This document shows, in pieces, positions 3,334 through 63,813 of a stretch of DNA of 64,000 nucleotides. The notes under the pieces were generated by a model. It made no database searches. It was given only the letters and a program-made list of their open reading frames with translations, and was not told where the DNA came from. Position 1 is the stretch's first letter. Every line of letters begins with the position of its first letter. The stretch lies in the NCBI GenBank assembly GCA_944332505.1, contig CALVKC010000002.1, forward strand, positions 144,276 through 208,275, read 5' to 3'. The translations under genes were made by a program, and so were the position numbers. Origin of the DNA: an uncultured Bacilli bacterium (lineage in GTDB: Bacteria > Bacillota_I > Bacilli_A > RF39 > UBA660).

Positions 3334-4149
3334 CTATAAATACCTTTCTATATATTCCCTATTATCTTTAAACATTGGTATATTTATATCTAATTCAAAT
3401 TTATCACTATTTTTATTTTCTTCTGTATTATTTGTTACAATAGTAAAACCAACCTTTTGTAATTGTGTTATATCTTTATCAAAATCTACACCAAAATCTT
3501 TTTTTACCATTTCTATCTTATCTGGATTTTTTACACCTTGTAATTGTTTAGTTGGGTAATATTTTCTTGCAAATCCTGATATTGAATTTCTTAATGCGTC
3601 TTGTTGTCTAAATATAAAATAGTTTGTTACTTCATCTAATGGTAAATTAAACACTCTTGCGTCAAACATTGCTTTAAATAGTTTTTTATATAGCATATTA
3701 TATCTATTTTGCACCAATTCTCTATCAACATTATCTTTATTTAATAGCGCACTATATCTTTGTACTAATTCCAATAGGTATTTATTAAATAATAATGTTG
3801 CTTCTGAACTTATTACTGATACTATCTTTTGTACTCTATAATCATACCAAGTATCTACTCTACCACCGTCTATTTCTTTTGTATGGTCCCAGTCTGTTAA
3901 TAATAAACTTATTTCATCACTCTGTGAATATATAAATCTTACATTGTCTACACTTTTTCTTAAATCTAGTGCTACTTTTTGAAATATATCACTTAAATCA
4001 TCATCAAATGGTTTTTCAAATCCTCTTGTAAAATGACTAAATTTACGACCATCTAATCTTATTATAACTGGTAATTTCTTTATTAACTTTGTTTGTGTTT
4101 GACTTTCATACTCTTTCATTCTATCACTTAATGATAATGCCATACTCAT
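3334..4149 (-). CDS. Thg1-like protein (tRNA-His guanylyltransferase family, 3'-5' polymerase)
   Basis: Thg1-family proteins add nucleotides to the 5' end of tRNA, running polymerisation in reverse; bacterial Thg1-like proteins restore truncated tRNA 5' ends. Signatures are RLDGRKFSHFTRGF (first metal Asp) and QSDEISLLL (second metal site), then FDARVFNLP and RQQDALRNSISGFA, all in family order. An ATG at 4173 lies before the AAAGGGAG ribosome site, so ATG 4149 (MSMALSL) is the better start, giving 271 residues. It sits directly after a strong promoter. In phages it may repair tRNAs cut by host defence nucleases; here it could also act on the odd tRNA-like genes at 20.3-20.5 kb (inference). 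Confidence 0.9.
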   Translation of the reverse strand: MSMALSLSDRMKEYESQTQTKLIKKLPVIIRLDGRKFSHFTRGFEKPFDDDLSDIFQKVALDLRKSVDNVRFIYSQSDEISLLLTDWDHTKEIDGGRVDTWYDYRVQKIVSVISSEATLLFNKYLLELVQRYSALLNKDNVDRELVQNRYNMLYKKLFKAMFDARVFNLPLDEVTNYFIFRQQDALRNSISGFARKYYPTKQLQGVKNPDKIEMVKKDFGVDFDKDITQLQKVGFTIVTNNTEENKNSDKFELDINIPMFKDNREYIERYL

Positions 4150-4187
4150 AATTCTATCAACTCCCTTTATCAATAGTACCTACTTAT

Positions 4188-4732: not shown

Positions 4733-6163
4733 CTATATAGTTCCATTAGTGTATTCATCATTTTGAGATAATGCTTTTTTTATGGCTAACTCTAATCTTA
4801 TTGGAGTATAATTATTAATATCAGCACCAACATTATAGCTATGTCTAGGTACAGTATATGGTACACTGTGTATGTGTCCAAATAATTGAACATATGGATT
4901 TATGTCTTTATCTTTATGTTTAAATGTTTGTAGCATATAGTGCATTAATACTAATTTAACACCTTTATATGTTGTTTCTTTATAATCATATATAGCTTTG
5001 AACAAACTCTTATCAAAATTTTTATCTTCTAAATATATACAATCGTGATTTCCTTCAATTAATACCTTATCACCATTTAATTGTGTTAATATCTCACTAG
5101 TTTTTACTGCTTTGTGAAAACTAAAATCACCTAATATTAGTACTAAATCACCTGATTTAACTACTCTATTCCAATTTTCTATCAATTTATTATCGTGTTC
5201 TTCTATTGTATTTATATTTAATTTAGTATCTCTATGTTCATATTTAATTATATTATTATGACCAAAATGAGTATCAGAAGTAATAAATACATTTCTATAA
5301 TGGTCTGGACACAATTTATATGGTTGTTGTTCTACTGGAACTAACTGTTCTTTAAAATATGATTTAAGAATATCATTTTTTAACTTATTTAGTTTATTTA
5401 TTGTAGTTTCATTAATTGAATATTTTTTATCTTTCCAGATATGTTCTTTGTAATATATGTGTTTTTCTTGCATTATATTAAAATACATATCAGCTAACTT
5501 ATCAGCTTCTTCTAAACTAAATTTATTACATTTTGTATCTAATAGTAATTGTCTTTCTATATCATTAAATGCTGTCAAACTTTGCTTAAAATTACAGTCA
5601 TTCTCTAATGCTCTTAAAAAATAGTATAATCGAATTAAATGACTTAATTGTTTACCATCATAACCATATTTATTTATTTTATCTATTATAGAAGGGTATG
5701 GGTGGTGTAATGCGTGATATTTTTCACTACTCATACCAAATATACTTCTAATCAATAAATCTCTACTTATATTTGCTATATCATATTTCATTTCAAATAA
5801 TCTATTAGCATAGTTTTTGTATTTTTTATTAATAATTTTATAATCTGTAAATAATGTTTCTAAATACTGTATATTTTGTTTGCTATACAACTCAAACATA
5901 CTTCTTATATCTTTTATATTAATGTGTTCATTGTTATCTAATACTAATGTTGTTGATATTTGATGATTAAGATTAACAAAATCATCAAAACTAGGCAATA
6001 CTACTGCAAAACAATCTATATCACTAACATAATCATCTGTATATAAATCTAATCCATAATTCTGACTACCCTGCAATGATACATATACTACTTCATAGCC
6101 TTTTTCTATCAAATAATTATACTTTTGTTTTAGATTTTTAAATATTTTAGCTTCCCTATTCAA
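4733..6163 (-). CDS. RlaP-like nucleotidyltransferase fused to a calcineurin-like phosphoesterase
   Basis: 476 residues in two domains. Residues about 1-270 are a DNA-polymerase-beta-fold nucleotidyltransferase of the RlaP type: GSQNYGLD at 32-39 and VSDIDCF at about 46-52 supply the metal aspartates. Residues about 290-460 are a metallophosphoesterase with SDTHFGH (296-302), GDFSFH (345-350), GNHD (371-374) and GHIH (429-432), so the metal site is complete. RlaP proteins are known as partners of RNA ligases, and the phosphoesterase family includes enzymes that trim 2'-3' phosphates. A fused RNA end-healing enzyme is therefore a good guess, especially next to a Thg1-like gene. No RNA ligase was recognised in the window. 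Confidence 0.85.
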   Translation of the reverse strand: MNREAKIFKNLKQKYNYLIEKGYEVVYVSLQGSQNYGLDLYTDDYVSDIDCFAVVLPSFDDFVNLNHQISTTLVLDNNEHINIKDIRSMFELYSKQNIQYLETLFTDYKIINKKYKNYANRLFEMKYDIANISRDLLIRSIFGMSSEKYHALHHPYPSIIDKINKYGYDGKQLSHLIRLYYFLRALENDCNFKQSLTAFNDIERQLLLDTKCNKFSLEEADKLADMYFNIMQEKHIYYKEHIWKDKKYSINETTINKLNKLKNDILKSYFKEQLVPVEQQPYKLCPDHYRNVFITSDTHFGHNNIIKYEHRDTKLNINTIEEHDNKLIENWNRVVKSGDLVLILGDFSFHKAVKTSEILTQLNGDKVLIEGNHDCIYLEDKNFDKSLFKAIYDYKETTYKGVKLVLMHYMLQTFKHKDKDINPYVQLFGHIHSVPYTVPRHSYNVGADINNYTPIRLELAIKKALSQNDEYTNGTI

Positions 6164-6175
6164 CTACACCACCTC

Positions 6176-6889
6176 CTATTCATTTATCATATATATTATC
6201 TGCTTATTGTGTTTTTTTGCAAACTCAATTTCCTCTTTAACAATATCATTAATCTTGTTATCTATATTGATTACATATACAGTATCTGATAATAAAATTT
6301 TATCTTTATGTATTTCTTTATATATTTCCATATCATCATATTCCATATTAGTTTCAAATGATATATCTATAAACACCATTTCACCATTTGTTGAAAATTC
6401 TCTATATTTATCTAATATAATATCTTTAAATTCTGGATTACCACAAATAGTGGTTATTTTTCTTGATTTATTCTTAATAAACTGCACTAAATCATTATTC
6501 ATTGTATTAATATGTTGTTTATAAATCCTATCATAATCATATCTATCTAATGTAATACCCACACTCTTTAATTGTTCTTCATAATCTTGTGGTTTATATT
6601 CACCAGTTCTATATAAATCAATAGTAACAAATAAATCTCCCATAAAATCAGCAATATCATTTTTATCTATTTTAGTTTCTTCACTAAAATATAAAGCATA
6701 TGCAACAGCAACCATTATAGTATCAACAGAATTTGCTAATTCAAGTGAATATATTATATCTAATTGTCTTTTTAAGTCTTGACTTATCTGTTGCTCTAAT
6801 CTATCTGCCCATTCTAATAAATGTTTTTTATCTTTTTCTCTTGCTGCTTTTTCTAATCTTCTAATTTCATTTCGATTTATCAAACTCAT
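6176..6889 (-). CDS. Protein with a C-terminal nucleoside deoxyribosyltransferase-like domain
   Basis: 237 residues. The N-terminal 130 residues are helical and resemble a domain seen in other Firmicute phage proteins. The C-terminal 100 residues (KITTICGN..., then HKDKILLSDTVYVINID, then KEEIEFAKKHNKQIIYM) match the pattern of nucleoside 2-deoxyribosyltransferase-like folds, where a 'K..L.D.vyVin' strand is followed by EI..A. This would fit with the ThyX and FolD genes just upstream in a nucleotide-metabolism operon. Activity cannot be judged from the sequence alone. Confidence 0.6.
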   Translation of the reverse strand: MSLINRNEIRRLEKAAREKDKKHLLEWADRLEQQISQDLKRQLDIIYSLELANSVDTIMVAVAYALYFSEETKIDKNDIADFMGDLFVTIDLYRTGEYKPQDYEEQLKSVGITLDRYDYDRIYKQHINTMNNDLVQFIKNKSRKITTICGNPEFKDIILDKYREFSTNGEMVFIDISFETNMEYDDMEIYKEIHKDKILLSDTVYVINIDNKINDIVKEEIEFAKKHNKQIIYMINE

Positions 6890-6912
6890 ATCATTATACC
6901 TCTTTTACTCTT

Positions 6913-17053: not shown

Positions 17054-17219
17054 TTCTATCACATTCCTTTTCTATTATATTTTGCTGTATTTTTAGTTGC
17101 TCTGTTTGTTCCTTAATAGTTTCTTCTTTAACTAAATAATGTAAGAAAATTCCACAAAGTAAAACAAACAAAGCAAATCCAATTATACTACTTTCAATTT
17201 CAAACTTACCAAATCTCAC
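17034..17219 (-). CDS. Small single-span membrane protein
   Basis: 61 residues. Residues about 11-30 (SSIIGFALFVLLCGIFLHYL) form one membrane helix; the rest is a charged helix (VKEETIKEQTEQLKIQQNII) probably in the cytoplasm. No signal peptidase site. The start shares a base with the stop of the 673-residue protein. Function unknown. Confidence 0.7.
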   Translation of the reverse strand: MRFGKFEIESSIIGFALFVLLCGIFLHYLVKEETIKEQTEQLKIQQNIIEKECDRNGINAN

Positions 17220-19240
17220 TATTTTATCTCTCCTAACAAACTAATAAATGTTTCTTTTGTAATATTATCATAAGATAAATCATAATCTACTGGTGTTACT
17301 ATTTTTTTATAAAGTGTTTCATTATCTACTACAACTTCTTCCATTGTTTCAATATTTTTATCTCTTGTGATAATAGCACCACTATCAGCAAGTAACTCAT
17401 TTAGAGATAATTGAGTTTTATTATATAAGTTTGTATAATCATATACCATTTTATTAACTTCATCAGGTTTGTTTACCCTACCCTTAATGGTTTCAAAGTT
17501 TTTAAAACTAATGTCTATTGAATTTTTAGTTATCTCCACATACCCCAATGTCAATGTTGGTGTAACCTTTTGTTTGTCAGTATTTTCAAATTTATTATGT
17601 AATAACAATTCTACTTTATTTGGGTCAACTATATAATGTTTATCAACTGTATCATCTGGAAATTTAGCAACAAATAATTCAAATGGTATTTCCTCTTTAC
17701 ATTGAGTAAAATCATTTAAAGTCAATAAAAATGCTCTATTATTTACTGATTGTGTAACTAAGAATACCTCTGTTGCACCATATGGTAATGGTGCGTCAGT
17801 TAAATCACCACTAAACACAATATCACCACTACCAGAATAGTATGACGCATTCCAACCAAAATGCTCATTTTTATTCATTAGTTTTAAATCTAAATCTACT
17901 CTATGGTCTGATAAATTATTCCAGTGAACACCAACTACCATATTACTATTTCTTGAAATACTAACACTTGACCCCTCTGGCATATTTCCTACAAATTGTT
18001 TTTCAGATGAAGGTGCCATATAAGTAACATTATCTGGAATACATACAGTTTTATTTTCAAATTTTTCAGATAATCTTGCAATTAAATGATTATATATTAA
18101 ATTAACTAATGTCTGCATTGCTACTGGCTGTCTTACACCTTCTAAATGATTAAATTTTGTAGCATATGCTTTACCATTTCTTACTCTATATACAATACTG
18201 TCAACATTATTACCAGCTTTTGACGCACTTATTCTATATCTTAATCCATTAATAATTCTAATTTCTCTAAAAATAGTAATTTTATCTAATTCATTTATTA
18301 TACTAGACCTATTACTTTCTAAATCTTTTAAAGATTTTATACTACTTAAATTGTCTAATATATTTTGTTTTAATGGTTGATGATATTTTGGTGCATATTT
18401 ACTTATCTTGTTTATTATAGTATTTAACTCTTTTTCATATTTATGGTTTGGTGTACTCGTTTTAAATGCCAAGAACATATTTTTATTTCTTAAAAAGATT
18501 TTAGCTAATTCTTCATAACCTTTATTTTTTGACACATAGTTCTTAAAATAATTATATGGTTCATATTTATCAGATTTTTTAATACTATAAATCATATCAT
18601 TACTTTGAATATATAATGTAGAATTAGTTGTTTTATAAACAACATATCTTAAAAATTCCATATTATTTTTTGGAACAATATTATATTTATCATATAATGC
18701 TATTCTAATTTCTTTATTTTTAATTTCATCAAGATTATCTTTATCTAAATAATCTGATAAGGTCATTATATCACTTATTGTTTGTTTTGATAATGCAATT
18801 CCACTAGTTAATAATGTCATTAGTTTATCTTGTAATTCTTGTTCTGATATATTTCTAATTACTTTTAATTCTATATCATTTTCTAATTCAGGTATCTCCA
18901 AATTTTCGTGTGGTACATATACCAAATCACTATTATATAAGTTTATTGCTTCCATACCATATGTAGTAAAATAATGTATTATTTGTTGTGCTATTAATGT
19001 TTCTATTGGTGTATCTAATACTGTTTGAAAAGATTTATGAAATGTATTATTCCATTCTTCTGGTTTTAAACCATACATTTTTTCAGCTTCTTCTTTAATA
19101 CTATCAGGTATATCTCTTGTATAAATTATACCCTTATCTAATGATGATAATTTAGTATTTTTCATACTATCTAATTCATCATTAAGTGTAAATGCTTTAA
19201 ATAACCTTAACTCAGCAATTATTTCTTGTAAATTCATCAT
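17219..19240 (-). CDS. Large protein with a possible TerD-like beta domain
   Basis: 673 residues. The N-terminal ~300 residues are helical and unrecognised. Residues about 385-505 contain MPEGSSVSISRNSNMVVGVHW, DHRVDLDLKLMN, GWNASYYSGSGDIVFSGDLTDAPLPYGATEVF. The 'DLDL ... SGD.T' pattern resembles the calcium-binding TerD fold of stress-response proteins, though this assignment is from memory. The C-terminus is mixed. A good ribosome site (AGGGAAAG) precedes ATG 19240. Role unknown. Confidence 0.7.
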   Translation of the reverse strand: MMNLQEIIAELRLFKAFTLNDELDSMKNTKLSSLDKGIIYTRDIPDSIKEEAEKMYGLKPEEWNNTFHKSFQTVLDTPIETLIAQQIIHYFTTYGMEAINLYNSDLVYVPHENLEIPELENDIELKVIRNISEQELQDKLMTLLTSGIALSKQTISDIMTLSDYLDKDNLDEIKNKEIRIALYDKYNIVPKNNMEFLRYVVYKTTNSTLYIQSNDMIYSIKKSDKYEPYNYFKNYVSKNKGYEELAKIFLRNKNMFLAFKTSTPNHKYEKELNTIINKISKYAPKYHQPLKQNILDNLSSIKSLKDLESNRSSIINELDKITIFREIRIINGLRYRISASKAGNNVDSIVYRVRNGKAYATKFNHLEGVRQPVAMQTLVNLIYNHLIARLSEKFENKTVCIPDNVTYMAPSSEKQFVGNMPEGSSVSISRNSNMVVGVHWNNLSDHRVDLDLKLMNKNEHFGWNASYYSGSGDIVFSGDLTDAPLPYGATEVFLVTQSVNNRAFLLTLNDFTQCKEEIPFELFVAKFPDDTVDKHYIVDPNKVELLLHNKFENTDKQKVTPTLTLGYVEITKNSIDISFKNFETIKGRVNKPDEVNKMVYDYTNLYNKTQLSLNELLADSGAIITRDKNIETMEEVVVDNETLYKKIVTPVDYDLSYDNITKETFISLLGEIK

Positions 19241-19626: not shown

Positions 19627-20112
19627 TCAAAAGTTTAAGTTTTCATCTAAATCTATATAAGCATATACATATATATTATCTTTAATTATCTCTAATGCTT
19701 TTAATGTATCTCTCAATGTTGTTCCTGCTTTCACAAATGTTACATTATCATTTCTACCCTTTATAGTTAGCCAAGGTACAATACCTTTATTTATATCTTC
19801 AACACTATATGGAGAATTATTTGTACCAGTTCTTGGTGTTGCTATATCATACCCACCAGTAATTACTAATTTATATATAGAAATTTCAGGGTATATACCT
19901 ACACCATTTTTGACACCTTGTTCTGGTTGTGAATAATCATTTTCGTATGGTTCACCTGCATTATGTTCATATGGTCTATCATTCCAGTCATCTCCCCATT
20001 GTTCAGTAACGTCATCTAACTCTGTAAAATATAAAGTAATTGGGTCTCCTGCCCATTCTTCACTATCAACAAAACATAATTTATAATTCATAAACTTTTC
20101 ATCTATTTTCAC
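19627..20112 (-). CDS. Phage protein of unknown function, GTG start
   Basis: 161 residues. Starts at GTG 20112 after a clear GAGGTGG site. Contains the acidic, aromatic stretch WGDDWNDRPYEHNAGEPYE, a pattern I have seen in many uncharacterised Firmicute phage proteins, then a beta-rich C-terminus. First gene after the permuted tRNA-like locus. Confidence 0.75.
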   Translation of the reverse strand: MKIDEKFMNYKLCFVDSEEWAGDPITLYFTELDDVTEQWGDDWNDRPYEHNAGEPYENDYSQPEQGVKNGVGIYPEISIYKLVITGGYDIATPRTGTNNSPYSVEDINKGIVPWLTIKGRNDNVTFVKAGTTLRDTLKALEIIKDNIYVYAYIDLDENLNF

Positions 20113-20130: not shown

Positions 20131-20226
20131 AAATAAAATAAAGCTAGTTGAAATGTATTATTTTCTTGCTTATCAGGCAAGTCCAAAAATGGCGGACTTA
20201 AAATAGGAACATTTTATAACTAGCTT
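20131..20226 (-). ncRNA. Branched RNA element ending the RNA locus (possible terminator)
   Basis: Outer 9-bp stem AAGCTAGTT/AACTAGCTT (20218-20226 with 20141-20149), inner AAATGT/ACATTT and TATTTT/AAAATA pairs, then two hairpins: AAGTCC-GGACTT and CTTGC-GCAAG. Followed by TATTTTATTT on the minus strand, so it may also terminate the RNA transcript. It lies directly after the 5' half of the permuted tRNA. Not a known riboswitch as far as I can tell. Confidence 0.5.
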
Positions 20227-20264
20227 CTTCAATAATATTAGTAGTGGGTAGTAAATACATTTAA

Positions 20265-20350
20265 ACCTCTGCTCTACCAACTGAGCTATATACTCTCCCA
20301 TTTGGTACAAACGAGTATAGTTGGATTTGAACCAACGACCTAAGGTGGAC
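20265..20350 (-). tRNA. Circularly permuted tRNA gene (3' half before 5' half)
   Basis: On the minus strand the 3' half comes first: ACCTT (anticodon stem, 20346-20342), AGGTC variable loop, GTTGG-TTCAAAT-CCAAC T arm, TATACTC acceptor (20319-20313), G73. A 16-base linker follows, then the 5' half: GAGTATA acceptor (20295-20289), TA, D arm GCTC-AGTTGGTA-GAGC, A26, GAGGT (20269-20265). Acceptor pairing is 7/7 and anticodon-stem pairing 5/5 (one G.U), so the body is canonical only if the halves are swapped. No CCA is encoded. The anticodon cannot be fixed because the junction in the loop is unknown. GGTAGT at 20372-20367 pairs with ACTACC at 20252-20247, extending the anticodon helix. Confidence 0.7.
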
Positions 20351-20470
20351 CTATCTTTTTATAGGAACTACCTATACCACATATAATAAACTTGTGTGAC
20401 GGAGAGTAAACTACTTACAACCCCAATTTGTATGGTTTTCCACCTAAATAAGGAACTCTCTATGTCACAA

Positions 20471-20565
20471 TATTATTGGCGAAGACTAACCATTGTATTC
20501 CCCAAATGGAGAATTTCAGGATTTGAACCTAAATAAACCAGTTATTAGGAAGTCTTTATGCCTTA
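20471..20565 (-). ncRNA. Permuted tRNA-like RNA, two-piece tmRNA-like layout
   Basis: The 3' part comes first: GGC-ATA-AAGACT (20562-20551), T arm TTAGG-TTCAAAT-CCTGA, acceptor ATTCTCC (20514-20508), A73. Only three bases later the 5' part begins: GGGGAAT (20503-20497), ACAATGGTT in place of a D arm, AGTCTT-C-GCC (20487-20478). The acceptor pairs 7/7 with G3.U70, and with A73 this is the alanine identity set used by tRNA-Ala and tmRNA. AGTCTT/AAGACT and GCC/GGC form a long helix where an anticodon arm would be. There is no D stem and no anticodon arm, as in tmRNA. One extra base lies between T and acceptor stems. No convincing tag reading frame; a short frame TSLLYVV-stop lies at 20372-20395. 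Confidence 0.5.
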
Positions 20566-20571
20566 TAATAT

Positions 20572-26493: not shown

Positions 26494-26525
26494 AATAAAA
26501 AATGGTAACTTTTAAGCCACCATTT
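26494..26525 (-). terminator. Intrinsic terminator after the methyltransferase genes
   Basis: Stem AAATGGTGGC/GTTACCATTT (11 bp with G.U pairs) followed by T6 ATT on the minus strand. The stem includes the end of the 26512-27558 gene. It is followed 12 bases later by a promoter. Confidence 0.75.
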
Positions 26526-27558
26526 CCCAAAATCTAAATTCGCTTAATTTAAAAATACATTCCATTAACTCTTTCCAATAACTACCTATCATACTATTTC
26601 CAGCTAATCTATATAATTCTTCATCATCAAAACCAGCTTCACGCAAACAATAGTAATAACCATCTACCAGACCCATACACCTAAATATTTCTAATGGTGT
26701 TAATAATCTCCACTTACCTGTTTTATCTCTTATAATTGGGCTATACCCTCTATGATAACCGTAATTTGCAGTAATAGTACGCATTAAAGTATTGTTGTTT
26801 TCAATAAATATATTTGTTGCCGACGTATGTTTTATATCTTCATAATAGCCATTTTCATAATATAATCTACCACCATCTTTACTTTGTGCTAATTTTACTT
26901 TTTCTATTTGTTTATCAGTTAAATAATATTTATCATCTACCTTATCAAGTAATATATCATTTATAGTTTTACGTGTTTCTACACCTTTTGGAAATTCAAA
27001 TTTATCAACTAAATTTAAACATTTTAAAAAACCAACAACACATAATCTAGTTCTATCTTGTGGTGTATTAAAATTTTTTGCATTATATTCATCTATTTTT
27101 ATAGCATACCCTAAATCTTGTAAACTGCCTAAATAATCTGATATATTATCTATTTGTTGTACTTTACTTTGTTGTAGTGTATAATCAATTATAAAACATT
27201 TTGGTTTTTTAAATTCTACAAACTTATAAACACCCATAGGCATATTATAATTACGTAATATAAAATTTTCTAACATTGGTTTTTTATAATTTCTATTACT
27301 AAAAGTATTGGAAGGAAAACTTATAGTAACCAAATCTATATTATCACATATAGTAGAAAAATCTAGTGTAACTATATCACTTTTATCAAAATTTGTTTTA
27401 TGAAAATAATTATACGCATACATACAACCCTCATTTTTGTACTCATTATCTATACAACCAACAATATTAACATTTGAACACCCAGCTGTTATAAGACAAG
27501 CCTGCGTACCAACACCTATACCAGCACCAATTTCCATAAAATTTAATCTTCTATTCAT
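26512..27558 (-). CDS. C5-cytosine methyltransferase-like protein, catalytic Cys replaced (probably inactive)
   Basis: 348 residues. SAM-binding motif I (MEIGAGIGVGT), motif VIII (TPQDRTRLCVVG), a TITANYGYHRGYSP target-side segment, motif IX region RLLTPLEIFRCMGL and motif X (LAGNSMIGSYW) are all kept. The active-site loop reads SFPSNTFS at 80-87 where active enzymes have PC; Ser83 stands in for the cysteine. Motif VI, normally ENV, reads IDY. Methyl transfer by the usual covalent route is therefore unlikely. It directly follows an intact paralogue, so it may be a regulatory or specificity partner, or a DNA-binding decoy. Confidence 0.85.
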   Translation of the reverse strand: MNRRLNFMEIGAGIGVGTQACLITAGCSNVNIVGCIDNEYKNEGCMYAYNYFHKTNFDKSDIVTLDFSTICDNIDLVTISFPSNTFSNRNYKKPMLENFILRNYNMPMGVYKFVEFKKPKCFIIDYTLQQSKVQQIDNISDYLGSLQDLGYAIKIDEYNAKNFNTPQDRTRLCVVGFLKCLNLVDKFEFPKGVETRKTINDILLDKVDDKYYLTDKQIEKVKLAQSKDGGRLYYENGYYEDIKHTSATNIFIENNNTLMRTITANYGYHRGYSPIIRDKTGKWRLLTPLEIFRCMGLVDGYYYCLREAGFDDEELYRLAGNSMIGSYWKELMECIFKLSEFRFWEMVA

Positions 27559-27595: not shown

Positions 27596-28546
27596 TTAAA
27601 ATAGTTTCTTTTGTTGTAATTTATAATGCTTATCTAGTTTAACACCATATATATCGGCAATAAGTGCTTCTAACACATTAACTACAATAGAATTTCCTGC
27701 TTGTTTATAAAGTTGTGATTTTTGACATACTTTTGCTGCTTTTTCATAATCCTCGTCATCAAATCCCATAAGTCTCCAACACTCTTTTGCTGTTAATATT
27801 CTATAACCTTCTTTACATTTTATCTTCCCACTATTCCCACTTACTTTTCCGTAACTTGCTGTTATTGTAGGGTAAATATTATCTCTTACTACAAACCCAC
27901 CAAATGAATATGGTGCTCCAAAATCCTTTACCATTGTTAAATCATTTGCAGTTAAAACTACCTCATCTAAATCATAAGTATCTTCCAAATAATCAAAATA
28001 TGTTGTATCTAAAACCTGTTCTCTTGGAAATTCAAACTCTATATCATCTAAAATACTAATAGTAAATATTCTATTTCTACTTTGTGGTATGCCATAATCA
28101 CTAGAATTTAAAACTCTATAAAAATTATTATAACCAAATGACTTTAATGTATCTAAATATTTTTCATAATTATGATAGTGTCTATCACTAATAAGATTTT
28201 CTACATTTTCCCATATAACTACATTAGGGTGTAATTTATTAATAATTCTTATACTTTCATACATTAAACTAGACCTTGTATTACTATCTTTATCTCCACC
28301 CTTTTGTAATCCAGCCAAGCTAAAATCTTGACAAGGTGAGCCGTGCATTATAAAGTCTACTTCCATATTTTTATTCCATTGAGTAATATCTTGTGGCTTA
28401 AAATTAGTTCCATTTATAGCATTGTATGATTTAACTGAATATTCATTTAGTTCTACATAATCAACTACATTAAATGGTATTCCCACCTTTTTAAATGCCT
28501 TAGTACAAGCACCAATACCACCAAAAAGTTCTAATACTTTAATCAT
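27596..28546 (-). CDS. DNA C5-cytosine methyltransferase (Dcm family)
   Basis: 316 residues with all motifs: LELFGGIGACTKAF (I), HGSPCQDFSLAG with Cys72 (IV), VIWENVENL (VI), GIPQSRNRIF (VIII), RILTAKECWRLMGF (IX) and QAGNSIVVNVLEAL (X). It methylates cytosine C5 in DNA using SAM, most simply explained as protection of phage DNA from host restriction. No restriction enzyme is next to it. The target sequence cannot be told. Its start overlaps the preceding gene's stop. Confidence 0.95.
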   Translation of the reverse strand: MIKVLELFGGIGACTKAFKKVGIPFNVVDYVELNEYSVKSYNAINGTNFKPQDITQWNKNMEVDFIMHGSPCQDFSLAGLQKGGDKDSNTRSSLMYESIRIINKLHPNVVIWENVENLISDRHYHNYEKYLDTLKSFGYNNFYRVLNSSDYGIPQSRNRIFTISILDDIEFEFPREQVLDTTYFDYLEDTYDLDEVVLTANDLTMVKDFGAPYSFGGFVVRDNIYPTITASYGKVSGNSGKIKCKEGYRILTAKECWRLMGFDDEDYEKAAKVCQKSQLYKQAGNSIVVNVLEALIADIYGVKLDKHYKLQQKKLF

Positions 28547-62196: not shown

Positions 62197-63813
62197 TTAT
62201 CTAAGTCCTAATGGTGCTTGTAGTTGTAAGACATTTTGTTCAGGTTCATTTTCTTCAACAATACTACCACCCATTGTAATTACTGTTGAAGCTACACTAG
62301 TTGCATTTAACAAACTATATCTATCAACTTTTACAGAATTTATTACACCTGTCTCTATTAAGTTTTCATATAGACCAGATATTGCATTATACCCCAACTT
62401 TTTATTTACACACTCACTAACAACATTATCACCATTTAATCCACTATTTTCAGCAATTTGTCTAGTTACAGCTAATAAAGAATTATAAACTATACGTTCA
62501 CCCAATGTAACTTCTTTATTCATACAATTCATATATGCTTGTAAGAAACTATAACCACCACCTGCAACAATTCCTTCTTCTATTGCTGCTTGAACAGAAT
62601 TTATAGCGTCCTCTATTCTTAATTTCTTATCTTTTATCTCAATTTCAGAATTACCACCAATTTCTAATACTGAAACCCCACTTATCAAATTAGATATTCT
62701 TCTATTATATTGTTCAATTTGGTCATTACCTACATTATGAGATTGTTCTTTTAATTCTGCAACACGTTCTTGTCTAGCACCTAATAGATTTTTACCAGTA
62801 GAGGTTATATCTTTAAATTTTAAAATAGTATCATCATTTGTAATTATTGCTTGTTCTACTTCACCTAAATAATCCACTTCAAAATCTCTTAAAGTTCTAC
62901 CCAAATCTCTACCCATTAATGTTGCACCTGTTGCAATACAAATATCTTCAATTAAACTTTCTCTTAGTTCCCCAAATCCTGGTAATCTTATTATACCAAT
63001 ATTAGATATTCTACCTTGTGCTCTATTTCCTAATACCATATTTAAAGGTTCAAATTCTATATCTTCACAAATAATTAATAATTTTTTACCTAATGGAACA
63101 CATTTATCTAAAACACCAAATAAGTCTGTAACACTATCAATTTTATCTTTTGTTATTAATACACTCATATCAACTATATCTGATTTTAAATTAACTCTAT
63201 CATTTAATAAATATGGTGTAACACTACCATTAGTTAATTTCATTCCTTGTATAGATACTAAATTATCATTACCTGTTTTACTATCTTCTACAATTACACT
63301 TCCATATTCACCAGCTTGTTCAAATGCTTGTGCTATTAATTTTCCTATATCTGCATTGCCACTTGAAATTGTGGCAACTCTTTCTATACCTGCATTATCT
63401 TCTACTGGTACAGAAATTGATAATAAAAATTGATTAATGTCATCACTAGCTTTTAACATTTCTTTTTGTGTTTGTACCACATTTATATCATCTAAATTTT
63501 CATCAAAGAATTTATGTATCATTTCTTGTGCTAAAATTGTAGTTGTAGTTGTTCCATCTCCTGCAACAATGTTTGTTTTATTTGCTGCTTGAATAATTAA
63601 TTGTGCACCTGCGTCTTCGGTATTATCTTTTAGTTCAATAGCTTTTGCTATTGTAACACCATCATTAGTGATAATTGGAGCACTAATATTATTTCTAATT
63701 AATACATTTCTACCCTTTGGACCTACTGTTGTTTTAACAATATCTGCAACCTTATCAATACCACTAATAATATTATCTCTTGCTTCTGCACCAACTTTTA
63801 TATCTTTACTCAT
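62197..63813 (-). CDS. groL: GroEL-type chaperonin (60 kDa)
   Basis: 538 residues, full length. TTVGPKGRNVLI, TNDGVTIAKAIEL, AGDGTTTTTILAQ (ATP site), the apical part LLIICEDIEFEPLNMVL, LRDFEVDYLG and the terminal EGIVAGGGYSF/NSGLNGDNVV are GroEL hallmarks. The Gly-Gly-Met tail of host GroEL is missing; it ends in LQAPLGLR. Large phages use such chaperonins to fold capsid or replication proteins. No GroES partner was found in the window. Overlaps the upstream gene's stop by 8 bases. Confidence 0.95.
   Translation of the reverse strand: MSKDIKVGAEARDNIISGIDKVADIVKTTVGPKGRNVLIRNNISAPIITNDGVTIAKAIELKDNTEDAGAQLIIQAANKTNIVAGDGTTTTTILAQEMIHKFFDENLDDINVVQTQKEMLKASDDINQFLLSISVPVEDNAGIERVATISSGNADIGKLIAQAFEQAGEYGSVIVEDSKTGNDNLVSIQGMKLTNGSVTPYLLNDRVNLKSDIVDMSVLITKDKIDSVTDLFGVLDKCVPLGKKLLIICEDIEFEPLNMVLGNRAQGRISNIGIIRLPGFGELRESLIEDICIATGATLMGRDLGRTLRDFEVDYLGEVEQAIITNDDTILKFKDITSTGKNLLGARQERVAELKEQSHNVGNDQIEQYNRRISNLISGVSVLEIGGNSEIEIKDKKLRIEDAINSVQAAIEEGIVAGGGYSFLQAYMNCMNKEVTLGERIVYNSLLAVTRQIAENSGLNGDNVVSECVNKKLGYNAISGLYENLIETGVINSVKVDRYSLLNATSVASTVITMGGSIVEENEPEQNVLQLQAPLGLR

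Follow-up and report, generated by a model that had tools for sequence, protein, structure and literature searches.

Introduction

Circularly permuted tRNA genes occur in red and green algae and in some archaea. Y RNAs are said to have been found near Ro60 in many bacteria and phages by Chen and colleagues in 2014 (in RNA). YrlA is described as an RNA of 90-150 nt that has a tRNA-like domain and a stem made by its two ends (PMC8394870), and the bacterial Y RNA 6CU1 can be superposed on tRNA once a circular permutation is allowed for (PMC11472068). YrlA is reported to be left uncut by the Salmonella anticodon nuclease, of which it was suggested to be a possible competitive inhibitor (PMC7790460). 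A TROVE protein is described in a small subset of jumbo phages, and in cells it forms an RNA-repair platform with a tRNA-like partner (PMC7824862).

The window analyzed here, a stretch of 64,000 nucleotides, comes from a phage-like genome with genes for PolA, an NAD ligase, a chaperonin, and a DnaB helicase. The chaperonin (Cpn60/TCP-1, Pfam E 2.4e-45) is encoded at 62197-63813 on the minus strand, and two adjoining C-5 cytosine DNA methylase genes lie on the same strand at 26512-27558 and 27596-28546 (Pfam E 1.3e-28 and 2.9e-61).

An earlier note on this DNA had proposed a circularly permuted tRNA gene within the window. Our analysis favors, at a probability of roughly 0.7, a phage noncoding RNA of the Y-RNA (YrlA) type that forms a tRNA-mimic ribonucleoprotein (RNP) with a 673-aa partner protein.

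Results

Two tRNA halves lie in swapped order inside a predicted 146-nt RNA

The predicted RNA that holds the tRNA halves, here RNA #3 (20238-20383, minus strand, 146 nt), was recognized by a stem descriptor, by reading of the letters, and by its Rfam YrlA score, and consists of a Y-type stem around a circularly permuted tRNA domain. Along the minus strand, the tRNA 3' half comes first (ACCTT AGGTC GTTGG-TTCAAAT-CCAAC TATACTC G, 20346-20312), with the anticodon-stem 3' strand, the variable region, the T arm, the acceptor 3' strand, and G73. A 16-nt spacer (20311-20296) forms the loop linking the two acceptor strands and leads to the 5' half (GAGTATA TA GCTC-AGTTGGTA-GAGC A GAGGT, 20295-20265), which holds the acceptor 5' strand, TA, the D arm, A26, and the anticodon-stem 5' strand. 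Once the halves are put in order, the acceptor (7/7), D (4/4), and T (5/5) stems are entirely Watson-Crick, and the anticodon stem has 5/5 pairs, including one G-U; the letters thus bear out the full set of stems that had been claimed. The anticodon loop is absent, and a hairpin, CCTAT-AAAAAG-ATAGG (20365-20350), stands in its place, on the side where a tRNA would carry that loop. The 17-nt stretch counted from G73 has no CCA at positions 74-76, and ARAGORN called no tRNA in the region of 20265-20350. Each half occurs only once in the window, so that, as the earlier note required, no normal-order copy built of the same halves is present there; the closest of the three tRNAs in the window, tRNA-Thr (56975-56899), is alike only in part.

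When the window was dinucleotide-shuffled 6,101 times, the strict permuted core (7/7, 5/5, and 4/4 pairs) was matched 41 times, and only once if a 5/5 anticodon stem was also demanded. A loose descriptor (6/7, 4/5, and 3-4 pairs) was not significant, with one real match versus 1.98 per shuffle. In the unconstrained minimum-energy fold of RNA #3, the closing stem and T arm appeared, whereas the acceptor and D arms did not; 20 of 200 shuffles were as stable (z -1.38).

The whole RNA is closed by a long stem formed, as predicted from sequence, from its 5' and 3' ends. The 5' strand of this stem comprises S1 (20383-20376), ATA, and S2 (GGTAGT, 20372-20367), and the 3' strand comprises S2' (ACTACC, 20252-20247), C, and S1' (20245-20238); both were defined by the descriptor and the letters, and S1 is imperfect. 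GGTAGT and ACTACC had earlier been taken to pair and to close an intron around the anticodon. The pairing stands; the intron does not, as the two strands are the inner half of the stem that closes all 146 nt. A permuted intron-exon arrangement, with the tRNA flanked by the parts of a split self-splicing intron (group I-type or other) that forms a circle, would suit flanks that pair and a break near the anticodon as in intron-bearing tRNAs. However, Rfam group I and group II introns were absent at gathering score from the window and at E<=5 from the region, and the flanks form a short stem that also surrounds tips without any tRNA. The group I form had been the first idea and was dropped on these two grounds, the stem of relatives being placed around non-tRNA tips; such an arrangement is very improbable.

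Four tandem RNAs share one stem

RNA #3 is one of four stem RNAs arranged in tandem (20571-20142, minus strand) upstream of the gene for the 673-aa protein. RNA #1 (20470-20571, minus strand; S2 AAGACT/AGTCTT) was read by eye, as the stem descriptor did not find it. Inside it are a T arm at 20533-20515 and, at 20514-20497, an acceptor-like hairpin of 7 bp; it is without a D stem, which makes it a degenerate permuted domain (fold z -2.42). RNA #2 (20393-20471) and RNA #4 (20142-20225), both on the minus strand and both defined by the descriptor and the letters, carry the common stem around anticodon-like hairpins, TACAA-ATTGGGG-TTGTA (20432-20416) and CTTGC-CTGATAA-GCAAG (20181-20165; anticodon GAU), respectively. 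The first open reading frame (ORF) downstream of the array encodes 161 aa (19627-20112, minus strand) and had no PHROG match at E<=0.01. A promoter and terminator scan was uninformative.

The constant part of the RNA family is a bipartite stem from the RNA ends, and the tip is variable. The stem follows the plan S1 (8 positions) - AWA - S2 (6 bp) - TCC ... S2' - C - S1', with the family consensus GGC AWA RRAAGT TCCT ... T ACTTYY C GCC. An exact motif scan and a blastn search against phages found no relatives. A generic T-arm/D-arm pattern matched at least 120 stretches (L001-L120), which do not enter the counts given here. A relative, G002, was reached via its DNA polymerase: this 208,728-base viral record has four tandem RNAs with one common closing stem, tRNA halves in two of them, and the array placed just upstream of the gene for a relative of the 673-aa protein.

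The candidate partner is a TerD-like protein without detectable Ro60 homology

The gene for the candidate partner (17219-19240, minus strand) was singled out by structure and conserved linkage. The protein has a helical N-terminal part and, when examined as a possible TerD-domain protein, showed a TerD-like fold at residues ~423-585. Among 7,996 candidates scored, 1,482 relatives were found at E<=0.001, and none of the 120 listed has a precomputed Pfam domain. The protein itself gave no Pfam match below E 0.05 and no PHROG match at E<=1, and its relative in Phass-1 matches phrog_33734, of unknown function, at E 3e-5. Against the NCBIfam model NF041916 (RING_SCO0854), residues 374-493 matched at E 8.6e-10, with 37.4 bits versus a cut-off of 600. 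Around the TerD-like region, the partner family is distantly akin to the bacterial RING_SCO0854 proteins (L235-L239). A search of 77 genomes from one phylum found such cellular cousins in 3 (E<=1e-20), and in the phylum of a Coriobacteriia metagenome-assembled genome (MAG) they were present in 1 of 198 genomes, namely the starting genome itself; cousin loci from three genomes held no credible stem RNA.

A TROVE domain was found at E<=10 neither in the 673-aa protein nor in four related records, and among the 23 window ORFs of at least 300 aa (to which the search was confined) none matched at E<=0.01. Profile comparison with Ro60/TROVE gave a probability of 0.1-0.3%. For 32 partner relatives, Pfam at E<=1 returned scattered weak matches (best E 0.0025), with TROVE and TerD both absent among the 25 of 32 families listed. 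Foldseek and VIA showed no Ro60 fold among the matches listed, a result that covers mostly residues 426-573 and excludes nothing; a single-sequence fold of the protein was uninformative (pLDDT 31). At the level of sequence or profile, the partner thus has no detectable homology to Ro60, so any label of "Y RNA" rests on the layout of the RNAs.

The stem RNAs go with one protein family

Searching 50,697 phage records by tblastn with the 673-aa protein returned 5 records, and single-sequence scans of viral contigs with this protein or with its 506-aa neighbor found no relatives. An alignment of 32 sequences (A1) used as the query yielded 50 viral loci and 35 loci in genome contigs, the latter nearly all titled as MAGs and the last few being weak matches. 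The 77 distinct 700-nt regions examined upstream of partner genes contained 124 stem matches, with at least one in 60 regions, against a mean of 1.38 and a maximum of 4 in 50 dinucleotide shuffles and 2 on the opposite strand. The motif was missing from 17 of the 77 regions; in 5 of these it lies downstream or farther upstream, and in 2 (L201 and L175) the stem is a variant.

The converse search, for stem RNAs in viral contigs, gave 19 stretches, of which 13 hold the protein gene, on the same strand in 13/13. Five of these 13 were contigs that the protein search had already found; among the new contigs the gene was present in 8 of 14. In the remaining 6 of 19, the gene was absent from the DNA available (L247, L248, L249, L251, L253, and L256), which past the RNA runs on for just 335 bases in L249 and 700 in L256. 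Small genes that by eye are of the HNH/zinc-finger homing type lie near the stem RNAs in L248, L249, L251, and L256, and L251, L253, and L256 have a D arm followed by an anticodon hairpin.

Across 88 sources, with the gene strand only and identical RNAs dropped, we kept 186 stem matches, 160 of them near the gene, although a few of the 160 look spurious (e.g., L142, L206, and L135 3670-3889); 68 of the 88 sources have a match near the gene. Base-pair exchange was seen in both parts of the stem, with 1121/1376 S1 cells paired versus 735 with shuffled partners and 434/450 versus 301 for S2, but these matches were chosen for pairing, so the upstream-region shuffle is the cleaner control. The family was seen in gut and aquatic phage contigs and in one isolated cyanophage, S-CRM01 (HQ615693), which infects Synechococcus LC16 and in which five stem RNAs surround a gene, g174, annotated "conserved hypothetical protein." The five lie at L130 4538-4632, 4638-4763 (the tRNA-like one), 4769-4833, 4837-4904, and 6850-6907. 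In S-CBWM1 (L131), which has a protein relative, no stem of this type was found. At 15 relative loci, no Rfam family except tRNA and tmRNA reached gathering score. The tmRNA genes in stem-RNA phage contigs are at L132 8641-9079, L182 331-754, and L137 613-1036. Altogether, the stem-RNA family goes with one protein family, as shown by conserved linkage rather than by binding.

The stem carries permuted tRNAs, whole tRNAs, and bare hairpins

Permuted tRNA domains were present in 18 of the 186 stem matches, in 13 sources. The parser, which requires both halves and was run on the gene strand only with identical RNAs dropped, missed some visible domains (e.g., L182 3811-3954, L196 3335-3457, and L196 3717-3861), so that 18 is a lower bound. 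For 17 of the 18 (alignment A3, without L199 1733-1861, which is near-identical to L182 3671-3799), RNAalifold recovered all three arms (T, acceptor, and D) from the MAFFT alignment alone, and at 12 of 14 pairs some sequence had both bases exchanged. Covariation of both halves in relatives, by which the earlier note had proposed to check its claim, was thus seen. That note had also reckoned with relatives that conserve only one half, and this applies in part: both halves are kept in the 18 RNAs, and others hold only some of the domain, such as window RNA #1, which lacks the D stem, and L134 219-299, L251, L253, and L256, all four with only a D arm and an anticodon hairpin.

An intact anticodon hairpin lies inside the 5' piece in 6 of the 18 domains. 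When rejoined between positions 28 and 29, with 27-28 of the 3' piece placed ahead of 29 of the 5' piece, these six were called by ARAGORN as complete tRNAs, Thr(GGU), Asn(GUU) twice, Ser(UGA), Ile(GAU), and Lys(UUU); their 27/28-42/43 pairs are Watson-Crick in 12/12 cases and their 7-nt loops read C-U-NNN-A-A. Complete circularly permuted tRNA sequences therefore occur in phage DNA. This result fits true permuted tRNA genes, whose transcript would be cut at the stem, ligated at 28/29, and trimmed of the acceptor loop to give a working tRNA, as do the CCA encoded right after position 73 in 4 of 18 domains and the presence in the window of a Thg1-like gene and a below-cut-off RlaP-like gene, both of tRNA-repair type. 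Several observations argue against such genes. The window copy has no anticodon loop, CCA is absent from 14 of 18 domains, and a UUCG cap closes the acceptor stem in 3 of 18. The loops joining the acceptor strands measure 4-8 nt without CCA in 11 of 18 domains, and 12 of 18 have loops of 4 to 9 nt. In L135, L140, and L169, bases just upstream in the 5' piece can close the anticodon stem past position 29 (4-5 pairs), so that no single break point is dictated there. Nor is the common stem a splicing element specific to tRNA, since it also surrounds tRNAs in normal order, hairpins on their own, and degenerate domains. Normal-order tRNAs lie whole inside the stem in L140 2791-2914, L195 2682-2805, and L163 3640-3765 (56.8-66.9 bits). 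ARAGORN also calls L140 2654-2725, inside the permuted RNA L140 2653-2779, as a normal-order tRNA-Ser, and Rfam scores part of the permuted RNA L169 3663-3791 as tRNA (33.5 bits); for both RNAs we prefer the permuted reading because the acceptor and D arm then pair. On balance, true permuted tRNA genes seem an unlikely explanation of the family. A working tRNA from the window copy is unlikely, since it has neither anticodon loop nor CCA, whereas maturation is possible for the six relatives, because they are complete permuted tRNAs with canonical anticodon loops.

Most tips are not recognizably tRNA-derived, and most short tips have no anticodon-like hairpin. With a descriptor chosen after inspection of the sequences, a 5-bp hairpin whose 7-nt loop includes U33 and R37 was seen in 16 of 123 short tips, versus 0.74 expected (maximum 3 in 300 shuffles). 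Allowing any 7-nt loop gave 20 versus 4.9 expected, and allowing 3-bp stems gave 36 versus 10.2 (maximum 20); the enrichment among short tips also extends to hairpins whose loops are of other sizes (4 to 9 nt).

This range of tips also bears on whether RNA #3 is a relic, that is, what is left of tandem tRNA genes without their outer halves, a nonfunctional permuted fragment in a repeat-like hairpin array. A gradation from complete tRNA to degenerate tips (RNAs #1 and #2 of the window) would be expected of relics, and the CCA and AT-rich spacer in L137, L139, and L199 resemble a tandem tRNA gene junction. Against decay, acceptor pairing is kept across distant phages with exchanges on both sides (110/112 cells paired, in domains that were selected for at least 6/7 acceptor pairs, versus 55 with shuffled partners), and the stem motif is conserved in many phages, mostly adjoining the same gene. 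We find a relic quite unlikely.

Discussion

The permuted domain described in the earlier note is real in that it recurs and covaries in relatives, but its reading as a tRNA gene with an intron is not the best one. The pair on its flanks belongs to a stem present throughout the family, also around RNAs without a tRNA body. RNA #3 is probably a tRNA look-alike that works with a partner protein, not the gene for a working tRNA, as it is one of four Y-like RNAs and such RNAs recur beside one protein gene. In the Y-type RNP that we favor, the constant stem would hold up a variable tip, which in RNA #3 is made of the permuted T, acceptor, and D arms. The partner protein may bind the stem, and the RNP may thereby display tRNA-like tips. 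Other proteins, e.g., tRNA-modifying or tRNA-cutting enzymes, would recognize the tip as tRNA, and the tip would not be processed into a decoding tRNA. Most likely it would act as bait, gate, or sensor when the phage deals with damage to tRNA in the course of infection.

The anticodon-hairpin tips, together with genes of tRNA-repair type in the same window, point to tRNA-cutting defenses, and a role as decoy or sensor against them has, in our estimate, about one chance in three. The window encodes a Thg1-like tRNA guanylyltransferase (3334-4173, minus strand; Pfam E 6.9e-29) and a metallophosphatase with a below-cut-off match to RlaP, an RNA-repair nucleotidyltransferase (4733-6163, minus strand). 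It is possible that these two genes form a tRNA-repair set in the same phage.

Tentatively, the loci may represent a widespread, undescribed phage RNP made of a TerD-domain protein and arrays of Y-like RNAs with captured tRNA parts, which would serve as decoy or sensor for host defenses that cut tRNA and might in some phages even release working tRNAs. The captured parts would extend from anticodon hairpins alone (Asn, Lys, Ile, Pro, Leu, and others) up to whole permuted tRNAs. The RNAs described here look like the partners of a second protein family that goes with Y-type RNAs and is apparently not of the Ro60 kind. In this family tRNA mimicry is explicit and modular, with anticodon hairpins, permuted tRNAs, and whole tRNAs set on one standard stem, so that a connection among tRNA mimicry, phage defenses directed at tRNA, and RNA repair can be put to the test.

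Comparison with known systems

Among the open-access matches listed, the portions of text available held no description of the stem family, of the protein-RNA pair, or of phage permuted tRNAs, and the available parts of PMC9964418 and PMC10085705 hold nothing on this RNA.

Like algal and archaeal permuted tRNA genes, the phage domains have the 3' half before the 5' half, and six relatives rejoin to complete tRNAs. They differ in the break, which falls at 28/29 or in the anticodon stem, in the family-wide stem, in the frequent absence of CCA, and in the capped acceptor.

Listeria phage CKA15 offers a parallel in layout, since three small, highly active transcripts are reported from the DNA upstream of CKA15_055, the gene of an RNA-binding protein (PMC12282133). 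The protein matches Rsr by HHpred, and Y RNAs are one explanation that the authors offer. However, its counterpart in phage P100, gp165 (by position and size only), is a DUF7788/DUF2828 protein, unlike the TerD-type partner. In Listeria phage P100 (L244), three similar hairpin RNAs with CAGCAATTACTA-like loops lie at about 39435-39170, upstream of gp165, and they are possibly the abundant RNAs reported for CKA15. Related to the partner family by profile comparison (87.5%) is orf166 of Lactobacillus phage LpeD, a "cytoplasmic protein"; Foldseek matched a 746-aa LpeD protein of that name (E 1.8e-13). Unlike the partner genes, orf166 has no match to this stem motif upstream, and two stem RNAs of similar plan were seen there by eye only.

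The closest described RNA is YrlA (RF02553). RNA #3 scored 32.3 bits against it (E 5.6e-5), short of the gathering score of 69, and two G002 RNAs (36.1 and 33.6 bits) and the best RNA of Mycobacterium phage Myrna (40.3 bits) also stayed below it. A plain tandem tRNA-Lys gene pair in Myrna reached 31.7 bits, and 13 of 14 control genomes gave matches at E<=1. For these reasons the match by itself proves little, and the score was dropped as proof of a Y RNA. As a positive control we took the Ro-gene RNA of Myrna, which has a T arm, a 7-bp acceptor hairpin, and a D arm in permuted order with an outer stem. Myrna has two Y RNAs upstream of the Ro gene, which were absent among the YrlA matches listed at E<=1; the Myrna Y RNA loci lie at L230 about 2010-2270, L187 about 1456-1590, and L189 about 1475-1610. 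Two further Y-like RNAs of this phage (40.3 and 27.0 bits) sit between tRNA genes in its tRNA cluster and share GTCGGTTATC. Unlike the phage stem RNAs of this study, the Myrna Y RNAs have the GTCGGTTATC stretch in common instead.

The likeness to YrlA lies in the outer stem formed by the RNA ends and in the T, acceptor, and D arms, which in RNA #3 are permuted relative to tRNA. It extends to the presence of several Y RNAs per locus (two beside the Myrna Ro gene), to a place adjoining the gene of a protein partner, and to occurrence in phages. The stem RNAs differ from YrlA in their AWA / C internal loop and TCC, in their array of four, and in a sub-gathering Rfam score. They adjoin the gene of a partner with a TerD-like domain and no detectable TROVE homology, not a Ro60/Rsr (TROVE) gene, and their tips, unlike those of YrlA, also take the form of anticodon-like hairpins and complete tRNAs.
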